Positions 50,096 to 53,536 of a stretch of DNA of 64,000 bases are shown one piece after another. Every line of letters starts with the position of its first letter. Positions within the stretch are counted from its first letter, which is position 1. The position numbers and the translations under genes are program-made. Under the pieces are notes generated by a model. It was given only the letters and a program-made list of their open reading frames with translations. It did no database searches and was not told where the DNA came from. This DNA is from Leptolyngbya sp. BL0902 (GTDB lineage: Bacteria > Cyanobacteriota > Cyanobacteriia > Phormidesmidales > Phormidesmidaceae), in assembly GCF_016403105.1 (NCBI RefSeq), contig NZ_CP046155.1, forward strand, positions 3,005,906 to 3,069,905, written 5' to 3'.

Positions 50096-53000
50096 ATGAC
50101 CAACTTTCTCGCCCCCCTCAACCCCGCCCAACGCCAAGCCGTCGAGCACTTCTGCGGCCCGCTGCTGGTGGTGGCCGGAGCCGGATCGGGCAAAACCCGC
50201 GCCCTCACCTACCGCATCGCTAACCTGGTGCTCACCCACCGCATCGATCCCGAAAATATCTTGGCCGTCACCTTCACCAACAAAGCCGCCAAGGAAATGA
50301 AGGAGCGCATCGAGATTTTGTTTGCCGAACAGGATGCCCAGGCCAAGCACGGCAAATCCCTATCGGCCCTGTCGGATTATGAACAAACCAAGCTCAAATC
50401 CCAGGTCTATAAAAATATCACCAAGCATCTGTGGATTGGTACTTTCCACGCTCTTTGTGCCCGAATTTTGCGGTTTGACATTGAAAAATACCAACATCCC
50501 GCAGGCTATCGTTGGACAAAGAGCTTTTCGATTTTTGACGAATCCGACGCTCAAAGCCTGGTGAAAACCATCGTCACCCAAACCCTCAATTTGGACGACA
50601 AAAAGTTTAACCCTCGCTCCGTGCGTTTCGCCATCAGCAACGCCAAAAACCAAAAACTCTCCCCCGATGAACTAGAGCAAGAACAGCCCAACTATCGCGG
50701 ACGGGTGATTGCGGATGTCTATCGCCACTACCAAAAAGCCCTCGCTGAAAATAATGCCTTAGATTTCGACGATCTCATTTTGATGCCCGTTTACCTGTTT
50801 CAACAAAATGAACAGGTACTCGCCTACTGGCACAAACGTTTTCGCCACGTCCTAGTGGATGAATACCAAGATACTAACCGCACCCAGTACGAACTCATTC
50901 GACTTTTGGCAACTAATGGCGAAGAAATTTCTGAATATGAAAACTGGGATTATCGGTCGGTTTTTGTGGTCGGAGATGCCGATCAGTGCCTCCCTCCCGA
51001 AACAGAGATTCTGACTCCCAAGGGGCTAGTACCCATCCAAAATCTCAAAGTGGGTAGCACCGTTCTATCGACTAGGGGGCAAAATCAGTTATTGCCTGCT
51101 ACCGTCACCCAGATTAACAAAGGAAATTTCCAGGGAAAAATTTGGTGCATTCGGGTCGGGGATCGGGTACTGAAGGGAACTCCCCATCACATCCTCATGG
51201 CTCGTATGGTGCCCTTGCTAGATCGCTACTATGTTTACCTCATGTTCCGCGAAGATCGAGGCTATCGAGTCGGCATCACGACCGGGCAGCAATCCAATGA
51301 CTATGGACGCAAGGAAATTGGGTTTAAGGTTAGAGTGGCCCAAGAAAATGCGGATAAACTCTGGGTCTTAAAAGCAGTTGATACCTACGAAGAAGCCGCT
51401 TATTATGAAGCTTATTTTGCCGCCACCTATGGATTGCCCACGATGGTCTTCCATGGTAAAGGTCGGAAGTTGAGCATTTCAGATGAAACTATCTTTAAAC
51501 TTTTCTCTGAAATCGACACCTTCACACGGGCCGAATCGCTCATGCGAGATCTGTGGCTACATCCTGAATTCCCTCACTATCGTCCCCAAAATGGCCTGCG
51601 TCGCCAGACCATCAACTTCACGATGTTTGGAAACGTTAGGAAAGAAAGTGGTCGTTCCAGTCATCGTATTCAGTGGTCATCTAATCGAGCCGACATTGCA
51701 GAGAAATTGTCCCAAGCCGGATACCCAATTCGTCCCGGCAAGTTACCAGGAACCTATCGCTTTGAAACCGCCCGAAATTCCTATTCAGAAGGGTTGGCTA
51801 TTGTTAAGGATGCCGCAGAAGCAGGACATCTAGAAATCAAGCGTCGCGCCTTGATTAATAGTGAGATTTATAATTTCCTGCCACTTTCTCACCTGCATTC
51901 TGGCATGAGGGTTTTGGTTGATGTTAATGGCCAGCTAGAAGAACAAGACATTACAGAAGTTTGGCAGGAAGACTACGATGGCCCAGTTTATGATTTAGAA
52001 GTAGAGCATAGCCATAGCTACCTAGCTGATGGTGTGCTAGTTCATAACTCAATTTATTCCTTTAGGGCGGCAGATTTCACCATTCTGATGAACTTTCAGG
52101 ATGATTTTGGCGATGGCTTGCCCGATGATGATACCCGCACGATGGTCAAGCTGGAGGAGAACTATCGTTCCACGTCCAATATTCTAGAAGTCGCCAATTA
52201 CCTGATTGACAACAACACCGAACGCATTGATAAAGTGCTGCGTCCCACCCGTGGCGAGGGCGAAAGCATTTTTATCTACCACGCCGACGATGAAATTGCC
52301 GAAGCGAATTTTGTGATTAGCCAAATTCGCCACCTAGAAACCCAGCATCCAGAATTGAACTGGGGGGATTTTGCTATTCTCTACCGCACCAATGCCCAGT
52401 CCCGTGCCTTTGAGGAAATGCTGACCCGCTACGGTATTCCCTATCAGGTGGTGGGTGGAATGCGGTTCTATGATCGCCGTGAAATTAAAGACGTTCTGGC
52501 CTACCTGCGGTTGATTAATAATCCCTCAGATACGGTGAGCCTAAAGCGAGTGATCAACGTGCCGAAACGAGGAGTCGGCAAGGGTACTTTGGATAAATTG
52601 GAACAAGCAGCCCAAACCCTAGGAGTGCCCCTGTGGGAAATTTTGTCTGACGAAACCTCAGTCAAGACCTTGGCCGGACGGTCGGCTAGGGGCGTGTTGG
52701 AATTTGCATCATTGGTCAAAAATTATCAGGAAGACATTGCGAATCAAAAGGCATCTACGATTATTCAGGGTGTGCTAGATGACAGCGGATACCTAGCCGC
52801 TCTCAAAGCCGAAGGTACCGACGAAGCCGAAGATCGCTTTGGCAACGTGCAGGAACTTTACAACGCCGTGCTGCAATTTGAGGAAGAAAACGTTGATGAT
52901 CCGTCCCTAGAAGCCTTCTTAGCCAATGCGTCTTTAGCCTCGGATTTAGACGATACCAAAGACGGCAAAAATGCGGTTTCGTTGATGACCCTCCACTCTT

Positions 53001-53536
53001 CTAAGGGGCTAGAATTTCCGGTGGTGTTTTTGGTGGGGTTAGAGGAAGGGTTATTCCCCAACTATCGCTCTATGGAAGACCCCGCCGCCCTAGAAGAAGA
53101 ACGTCGTCTTTGCTACGTGGGCATTACCCGTGCCCAGGAGCGGCTCTTCATTTCCCACGCTAGGGAACGCCGCCTCTATGGTCAGCGAGAAATGGCTAGT
53201 CCATCACTTTTTCTATCTGAATTACCCGCCGATTTGGTCAGTGGCAACACTCCTCATCGCCGCCCTGGCAAAGCTAAGCCAGGGCATACGATGACTAGGA
53301 CAAGTACCCCCATGCGCGAGGCCCAAAAAGAGCGGGAATCTGCCGCAAGGCCAGGTAGCGGTGCCCACGAACGCGACTGGAAAGTGGGGGATGTGGTGGT
53401 TCACAAATCCTACGGGGCAGGGCAAGTCACTCACATTTTTGGAGCTGGAAATAAGATCTGCCTTGCTATTCAATTTCAGAGCCAAGGACGTAAAATTATT
53501 GATCCTAAACTCTCTCCTTTGCAGCGGGCAGAGTAG
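50096..53536 (+). CDS. pcrA: UvrD/PcrA-family DNA helicase interrupted by an intein
   Basis: 1146 codons in one frame: helicase 1-297, intein 298-651, helicase 652-1146. After splicing the protein would be 792 residues, normal for PcrA. N-terminal NPAQRQAVEHFCGPLLVVAGAGSGKTRALTYRI holds the Q motif and Walker A; motif Ia is VTFTNKAAKEM; motif II is VLVDEYQDTNRTQY; motif III is VGDADQ|SIYSFRAADF, split exactly between Gln and Ser by the intein. Downstream are KLEENYRST, GDFAILYRTNAQSRAFEE, MTLHSSKGLEFPVVFLVGLEEG and YVGITRAQERLF. The C-terminal Tudor-like RNA-polymerase-binding end has WKVGDVVVHKSYGAGQVTHIFG. Single-strand DNA translocase for repair and conflict resolution. Confidence 0.97.
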   Translation: MTNFLAPLNPAQRQAVEHFCGPLLVVAGAGSGKTRALTYRIANLVLTHRIDPENILAVTFTNKAAKEMKERIEILFAEQDAQAKHGKSLSALSDYEQTKLKSQVYKNITKHLWIGTFHALCARILRFDIEKYQHPAGYRWTKSFSIFDESDAQSLVKTIVTQTLNLDDKKFNPRSVRFAISNAKNQKLSPDELEQEQPNYRGRVIADVYRHYQKALAENNALDFDDLILMPVYLFQQNEQVLAYWHKRFRHVLVDEYQDTNRTQYELIRLLATNGEEISEYENWDYRSVFVVGDADQCLPPETEILTPKGLVPIQNLKVGSTVLSTRGQNQLLPATVTQINKGNFQGKIWCIRVGDRVLKGTPHHILMARMVPLLDRYYVYLMFREDRGYRVGITTGQQSNDYGRKEIGFKVRVAQENADKLWVLKAVDTYEEAAYYEAYFAATYGLPTMVFHGKGRKLSISDETIFKLFSEIDTFTRAESLMRDLWLHPEFPHYRPQNGLRRQTINFTMFGNVRKESGRSSHRIQWSSNRADIAEKLSQAGYPIRPGKLPGTYRFETARNSYSEGLAIVKDAAEAGHLEIKRRALINSEIYNFLPLSHLHSGMRVLVDVNGQLEEQDITEVWQEDYDGPVYDLEVEHSHSYLADGVLVHNSIYSFRAADFTILMNFQDDFGDGLPDDDTRTMVKLEENYRSTSNILEVANYLIDNNTERIDKVLRPTRGEGESIFIYHADDEIAEANFVISQIRHLETQHPELNWGDFAILYRTNAQSRAFEEMLTRYGIPYQVVGGMRFYDRREIKDVLAYLRLINNPSDTVSLKRVINVPKRGVGKGTLDKLEQAAQTLGVPLWEILSDETSVKTLAGRSARGVLEFASLVKNYQEDIANQKASTIIQGVLDDSGYLAALKAEGTDEAEDRFGNVQELYNAVLQFEEENVDDPSLEAFLANASLASDLDDTKDGKNAVSLMTLHSSKGLEFPVVFLVGLEEGLFPNYRSMEDPAALEEERRLCYVGITRAQERLFISHARERRLYGQREMASPSLFLSELPADLVSGNTPHRRPGKAKPGHTMTRTSTPMREAQKERESAARPGSGAHERDWKVGDVVVHKSYGAGQVTHIFGAGNKICLAIQFQSQGRKIIDPKLSPLQRAE
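50987..52048 (+). other. Intein in PcrA motif III with a GIY-YIG-like insert
   Basis: 354 residues beginning CLPPETEILTPKGLVPIQNL and ending YLADGVLVHN, with Ser as the first downstream residue. All splice residues are present: Cys1, block B TPHH (Thr and His at about 65-68), penultimate His353, Asn354, and +1 Ser. No LAGLIDADG motif is visible. Instead residues 81-97 read YYVYLMFREDRGYRVGI, then ITTG, and Glu141 lies in YEEAAYYEAYFAATYG, an arrangement like the GIY-YIG nuclease core. A segment HRIQWSSNRADIAEKLSQAG at about 226-245 may contact DNA. From memory, similar inserts occur in UvrD-type inteins of other bacteria. Confidence 0.9.

Follow-up and report, generated by a model that had tools for sequence, protein, structure and literature searches.

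The pcrA gene of Leptolyngbya sp. BL0902, in the 64,000-nucleotide stretch of DNA analysed here (the window), contains an insertion that is very probably a mobile class 1 intein, seated in motif III of this SF1 helicase and carrying a GIY-YIG homing nuclease; its splicing, DNA cutting and homing are predicted functions. Inteins carry mainly LAGLIDADG nucleases, and some carry HNH nucleases. An in-frame GIY-YIG intein, if that is what this is, would mean that the same splicing domain has taken up yet another nuclease fold, a third one unrelated to the other two. The features discussed below are collected in Table 1.

Table 1. Features of the intein-bearing pcrA gene, in window coordinates. Residue numbers are those of the intein.
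Feature	Position	Strand	Basis
pcrA including the intein	50096..53536	+	1146 codons plus stop; TIGR01073 match
N-extein of PcrA, 297 residues, through VGDADQ of motif III	50096..50986	+	sequence and empty homologues
Intein, 354 residues	50987..52048	+	translation, intein profiles, empty sites in relatives
Cys1, N-terminal splicing nucleophile	50987..50989	+	sequence; Cys in 40/40 relatives
Hint splicing domain, N-terminal half, residues 1-75 (end approximate)	50987..51211	+	Hint_2 match to residues 1-70; structure model 1
Block B, T65-P-H-H68	51179..51190	+	sequence; H68 in 40/40 relatives
GIY-YIG-like nuclease domain, residues 79-158	51221..51460	+	conservation, model, profile comparison
Candidate active-site codon Y84	51236..51238	+	
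Candidate active-site codon R94	51266..51268	+	
Candidate active-site codon R116	51332..51334	+	
Candidate active-site codon E141	51407..51409	+	
Second module, residues 159-290, absent from short forms	51461..51856	+	model; weak LAGLIDADG-like fold matches, unsupported by profile
Hint domain, C-terminal half, residues 291-354, with terminal H353-N354	51857..52048	+	TIGR01443, 31.7 bits
Ser+1, first residue of the C-extein	52049..52051	+	sequence
C-extein of PcrA, 495 residues	52049..53533	+	sequence and empty homologues

The exteins, i.e., the host sequence on both sides of the insertion, score 942.3 bits against the PcrA model TIGR01073 (cut-off 911.2), so the host passes as PcrA. A first-pass annotation of this DNA had described a 354-residue in-frame insertion exactly between the Gln and the Ser of VGDADQ/SIYSF, with Cys1, TPHH, HN and the +1 Ser intact, and a 792-residue PcrA once it is removed. 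All of this holds, with coordinates that are correct to the single nucleotide: the insertion (PcrA residues 298-651) translates without a stop, and the four splicing elements can be read directly, from the opening CLPPETEILTP through TPHH at residues 65-68 to the closing GVLVHN, which is followed by SIYSF. The class 1 motif set is thus complete (C1, T65-H68, H353-N354, S+1). The reverse strand of the intein contains many stops. Subtracting 354 from 1146 gives the 792 residues of the helicase, and the lengths of the open frames agree, as the pcrA frame measures 1153 codons from stop to stop and the 799 that remain without the intein are exactly the open frame of an uninterrupted gene in a related genome (G257). 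From the position of the insertion it follows that splicing would be needed for a working helicase.

Intein and Hint profiles, which the first-pass annotation had proposed as a check, also recognise the insertion. It passes TIGR01443 for the C-terminal region (31.7 bits, cut-off 15.6) and gives matches below the cut-offs to TIGR01445 for the N-terminal region (20.6 bits, cut-off 24.5), to Pfam Intein_splicing (PF14890; E 6.5e-7, 29.7 bits, cut-off 35.8) and to Hint_2 (PF13403; E 2.9e-4). One relative (L072) exceeds the cut-off of Intein_splicing with 53.3 bits. Sequence searches of solved structures returned weak matches to inteins only (best E 0.0028). A first structure model, built from a six-row alignment, was poor in its centre (mean pLDDT 63.1), and a fold search with it returned inteins and Hint domains only. 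Neither the intein nor its centre matched a named family in PHROGs.

Many close relatives have an empty site. We joined the two flanks into a 121-residue probe and ran it against 63 genomes of the family, of which 45 are empty (the probe matches in one piece), eight are filled (it matches in two pieces or by half) and ten have no match; the 26 genomes of the genus itself divide into 19, six and one. The uninterrupted VGDADQSIYSF is present in all 30 of the empty loci that were fetched, and we looked for relatives in which the inserted residues form part of a normal helicase and found empty sites instead. The closest exteins found belong to G257 (96.2% protein identity, 88.4% DNA identity), where the site is empty; it is empty as well in G377, whose exteins are 94.7% identical. 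The frame is uninterrupted in five of the eight filled genes; two others (G317 and G390) have broken frames on contigs of approximately 2.5x coverage, and in the last (G359) the contig ends within the gene.

The intein is therefore patchily distributed among near relatives and, as described below, recurs at the same point in a member of the Acidimicrobiaceae, both of which are traits of a homing element. In an extein tree of 37 genes (30 of the 45 empty and seven filled, complete loci only), the filled state requires seven changes for its seven occurrences, compared with a mean of 6.6 for shuffled labels, and the well-supported branches alone demand at least four. The intein tree, with seven rows, is without resolution. 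As far as the insertion point itself, the flanks resemble the empty sister most closely, so no footprint of co-conversion from any of the filled genes sampled was seen.

For the middle of the intein, a GIY-YIG nuclease is the most likely identity, not a LAGLIDADG one; this is a prediction from sequence and models, for which we regard the case as strong but not final. Residues 79-158 follow the pattern VYLM...YRVG...R116...LWVL...E141...YGLPT, and V83, Y84, L85, M86, R94, G96, R116, E120, W126, E141 and F155 are invariant in 27 inteins that are 25-77% identical to the one in the window. Because the search patterns contained VYLM and YG[LI]PT, the conservation of these two is partly built in by selection; R116 and E141 were absent from every pattern used. 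Of 40 relatives, 39 have R116 and 38 have E141, residues that correspond to the central Arg and the C-terminal Glu of GIY-YIG nucleases. The counterparts of the GIY and YIG motifs would be V-Y-L-M (partly selected by the patterns) and R-V-G, in which the first Tyr and the Gly are kept and the Tyr of YIG is replaced by Arg in 40 of 40. Some active GIY-YIG enzymes have Lys at this position.

Profile comparison points in the same direction. With hhalign, the domain profile aligned to 18 true members of Pfam GIY-YIG, taken from bacteria of the same class, over 62 columns, with a score of 29.89 and a probability of 76.7, which is below the level usually trusted on its own. In this alignment VYLM falls on the GIY strand, RVG pairs with YIG and the two Glu residues coincide, and the controls reached at most 15.71 (100 column shuffles) and 17.99 (38 helicase windows). 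The UvrC-type members alone gave a score of 21.77 (probability 19.0) and the small free-standing members alone 19.17 (probability 8.2). The T5orf172 branch, tried as the nearest relative on account of its KIG motif, was not supported: its score of 17.66 (probability 4.2) was no better than the controls. Three of the 27 members match Pfam GIY-YIG directly, with E 0.025 at best; no other family matches more than one member, and the intein of the window itself has no Pfam GIY-YIG match.

A second structure model, restricted to the centre (residues 76-294), is of better quality (pLDDT 88.1, pTM 0.75). In the numbering of that model, it begins with strands at 6-13 and 17-24, a helix at 37-44, a strand at 49-56 and a helix at 59-73, and this beta-beta-alpha-beta-alpha arrangement places Y84 on strand 1, G96 on strand 2, R116 on helix 1 and E141 on helix 2. 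According to the accessible text of PMC1564403, the GIY-YIG superfamily has the same order of elements and residues. Profile searches of solved structures returned no GIY-YIG entry, either for the centre profile (one chance match, to a SUMO protein, E 0.92) or for the nuclease-only profile (nothing). Among the fold matches listed by Foldseek and VIA, which were taken up by the second module, there is likewise no GIY-YIG structure, with residues outside 132-210 of the centre model barely tested by VIA. A viral fold library gave three matches below 0.001, to proteins (one of them nameless) whose description or length fits phage helicases or a methyltransferase bearing an intein, so they provide no independent identification of the domain.

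Beyond the nuclease, the centre model contains a further alpha/beta module, most of which is missing from short relatives of 263-296 residues. Its position suggests that this second module is probably the DNA-recognition part. It is also the source of a competing account, in which the centre derives from a LAGLIDADG endonuclease that has decayed, LAGLIDADG being the type found in most known inteins, and its likeness to GIY-YIG is convergent. LAGLIDADG endonucleases are the nearest solved structures to the centre in Foldseek (the first nine matches, E 0.026-0.062), and VIA-align places PI-PfuI (Z 4.0) and I-DmoI (Z 3.6) on the second module. We nevertheless think this account very unlikely: no Foldseek match to a solved structure reaches E 0.001, so those similarities are not significant, and the matched part lies outside residues 79-158 and is the module that short relatives lack. 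Considered as one half of a LAGLIDADG enzyme, the second module fails, as its profile scores 14.2 against LAGLIDADG endonucleases and shuffled controls score up to 23.3; nor does the intein of the window have any LAGLIDADG Pfam match at E up to 1. Less probable still, to the point that we give it almost no weight, is that the whole insert stays in PcrA permanently, as an ordinary domain specific to the lineage. An open frame throughout speaks for this reading, but the insert matches intein profiles, has complete splicing motifs, interrupts a motif of six residues that the helicase cannot do without and is absent from 45 relatives.

A more serious alternative is that the intein splices but its middle no longer cuts DNA, having been retained because the Hint fold or the regulation of PcrA depends on it. 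The Arg that replaces the YIG Tyr in all relatives and the lack of a co-conversion footprint are consistent with this, as are the short PcrA inteins of two other cyanobacterial genomes (L167 in G615 and L169 in G500), in which the candidate Glu E141 has become Val; in L169, R116 has also become Leu. Decay therefore does occur in the intein family. In the window, however, R116 and E141 are both intact, phage relatives retain the same residues, and presence and absence vary between near relatives. The nuclease domain is also the best-conserved part of the intein: compared with four cyanobacterial PcrA inteins, identity is 65% for Hint-N, 86% for the nuclease, 76% for the second module and 73% for Hint-C. 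Uncorrected pN/pS over ten pairs is 0.269 for Hint-N, 0.095 for the nuclease, 0.150 for the second module, 0.178 for Hint-C and 0.158 for the exteins, with pS of 0.71-0.79, i.e., near saturation, so these ratios are rough and their order carries more weight than their values. In the single closest pair (G303-G312), pN is lower in the second module (0.02) than in the nuclease (0.04). Constraint that is strictest in the nuclease runs contrary to decay, for which the opposite would be expected, and we therefore regard a purely structural middle as unlikely.

Outside the cyanobacteria, the genome scan found one match, in PcrA of an Acidimicrobiaceae metagenome-assembled genome, at the same point (VGDVDQ/SIYSF). 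Its intein is 50% identical to that of the window and its exteins 45%. With a G+C content of 69%, this intein resembles its own contig (71%) rather than the intein of the window (47%), so the transfer was not recent. The Leptolyngbya genome itself holds a second intein (L002:1261-2136, reverse strand), 30% identical and with a similar centre, in another UvrD-like SF1 helicase. It occupies the equivalent motif III point (VGDKRQ/C...CN/SIYGF) and has Cys rather than His as its penultimate residue. G377 has this second intein too.

Relatives are numerous in phages. Among 50,697 phage records, 53 match the intein of the window and 65 match a short form, and the records annotated with an intein include SPO1 gp34.33, CampHawk, PaulScherrer and JohannJBalmer. 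A scan of viral contigs gave 25 loci, several of them on contigs of 300-450 kb; a search of viral contigs with a single Nostoc plasmid intein protein found nothing. In 37 inteins whose ends could be delimited, the insertion point is directly after the motif III Gln in 29 and two residues earlier (VGDP/C) in one; two more are further downstream, three precede the S[AT]KG.EW motif and two are in DNA methylases. Adding SPO1 and two short PcrA inteins brings the count at the motif III point to 32 of 40. The queries consisted of intein sequence only, so this common site is not built in. The 37 exclude one L094 intein (no recognisable end), L101 (no initial Cys) and L102, as well as repeats and near-repeats (L072-L076, L090, L092 and L096).

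Some of these loci have peculiarities of their own. L167 and L169 place a short, SPO1-like intein at the same PcrA point, so one site hosts two intein subfamilies. The phage helicases of L080, L100 and L105 each combine a GIY-YIG-like intein in motif III with a different intein in the ATP-binding loop, in which LAGLIDADG-like motifs can be seen by eye; those of L083, L086 and L099 have two GIY-YIG-like inteins per protein, at two conserved motifs. In a Streptococcus suis phage (L103:2001-2855) and a Providencia plasmid (L104:2501-3358), GIY-YIG-like inteins interrupt ParB/N6-N4 methylase proteins at QHEP/C...HN/CL[FY]GW. A phage genome of 485 kb (L102) has a helicase intein just past motif II (DEAQDLNK/C...HN/C). 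In L101, the relative in AGDDDQ/AGVLGT begins with Ala rather than Cys and is possibly a class 3 or non-canonical intein.

Parts of this picture are already known, namely that UvrD/Rep/PcrA helicases carry inteins (PMC5874633) and that some phage relatives are annotated as inteins. The nearest described cases include the 275-residue intein annotated in the UvrD-type helicase gp34.33 of Bacillus phage SPO1, which has the same insertion point (VGDDDQ/C...HN/SMYSF) and the same centre (VYLM...FRVG...R...E). It differs in being from a phage and in being a short form without the second module, approximately 29% identical to another short form (L099). The CampHawk intein, also from a phage, stands beside that of SPO1 among these nearest cases (PMC3868849). 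Neither the SPO1 annotation nor the accessible text of that paper for CampHawk names a nuclease type. The UvrD/Rep helicase intein of Escherichia phage PaulScherrer (bas60_0082) is full-length (346 residues, 28% identical) and alike in its motif III point, centre and second module; it differs in its phage host protein and its +1 residue, which is Cys. In the accessible text of PMC5874633, UvrD/Rep/PcrA inteins have SF1 hosts too, but helicase inteins are placed at the P-loop, whereas the intein of the window is in motif III.

Other systems share one half of the design. PI-SceI and other LAGLIDADG inteins also consist of a splicing domain with an inserted homing nuclease, and the Hint part of the first model matches them, but their nuclease type is unrelated. 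The AceL NrdHF split intein is, in the accessible text of PMC7891396, tied to a GIY-YIG nuclease as here; it belongs to class 3, however, and its nuclease is a separate ORF between the two split-intein genes, whereas the domain in the window is in frame within an unsplit class 1 intein. Known GIY-YIG homing nucleases, as presented in the accessible parts of PMC1564403 and PMC3943268, have the same type of catalytic domain but are intron-borne or encoded by free-standing genes, and the 2006 survey of the superfamily states that GIY-YIG had not been found in inteins (PMC1564403). We found no description of a GIY-YIG domain within an intein in the accessible open-literature text of PMC7765530, PMC1564403, PMC7891396, PMC8772380, PMC5871332, PMC3853055, PMC11037411 and PMC3943268; the comparison also took in the accessible text of PMC6390638, PMC7824862 and PMC7344957.

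We propose that the precursor would be translated straight through, intein included, and that the Hint domain (residues ~1-75 and 291-354) would excise the insert by means of Cys1, the TPHH block, His353-Asn354 and Ser+1, class 1 splicing yielding an intact helicase of 792 residues. The GIY-YIG-type nuclease (residues ~79-158) would cut uninterrupted pcrA where it encodes the GD..Q/SIY.F motif, which hardly varies, and homology-directed repair from the filled allele would copy the intein in. Phages sharing the helicase motif are a plausible vehicle. As a target, motif III has two advantages: all SF1 helicases of this type constrain its codons, and imprecise loss of the intein would destroy the helicase.

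More broadly, the evidence tilts us, if modestly, towards a large unnamed lineage of bifunctional inteins with in-frame GIY-YIG (rather than LAGLIDADG or HNH) nucleases. Such a lineage would be specialised on the DNA of SF1 motif III and would pass among bacterial phyla and several phage families, with offshoots in DNA methylases and at other motifs of helicases; here, its nuclease would be selected more strictly than the helicase, and homing would be current. One coding motif reused across bacterial and phage helicases would offer a testable case of a selfish element that crosses hosts by way of an active site conserved at the level of codons. The homing cycle could be tested on a natural set of sister species with and without the intein, of long and of short forms, and of nucleases that are intact or lack the Glu; the laboratory phages SPO1 and PaulScherrer carry relatives.

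The same genome has another intein outside the window, in dnaX (L004:277-1566). It is 430 residues long and open in the dnaX frame, and within it a different frame (492-1499) encodes a 335-codon LAGLIDADG endonuclease (LAGLIDADG_2, E 1.2e-16). This DnaX case may already have been described by Gorbalenya in 1998. The dnaX frame is free of stops through the intein in all 19 related loci, and 18 of the 19 have 241 or more consecutive codons open in the same alternative frame, with a stop inside the match in at least three. An out-of-frame endonuclease without intein domains has been published, according to the accessible text of PMC11855218, which cites Gorbalenya 1998. Among the DnaX loci, identity is 50-70% for the endonuclease and 27-46% for the overprinted middle of the dnaX frame.
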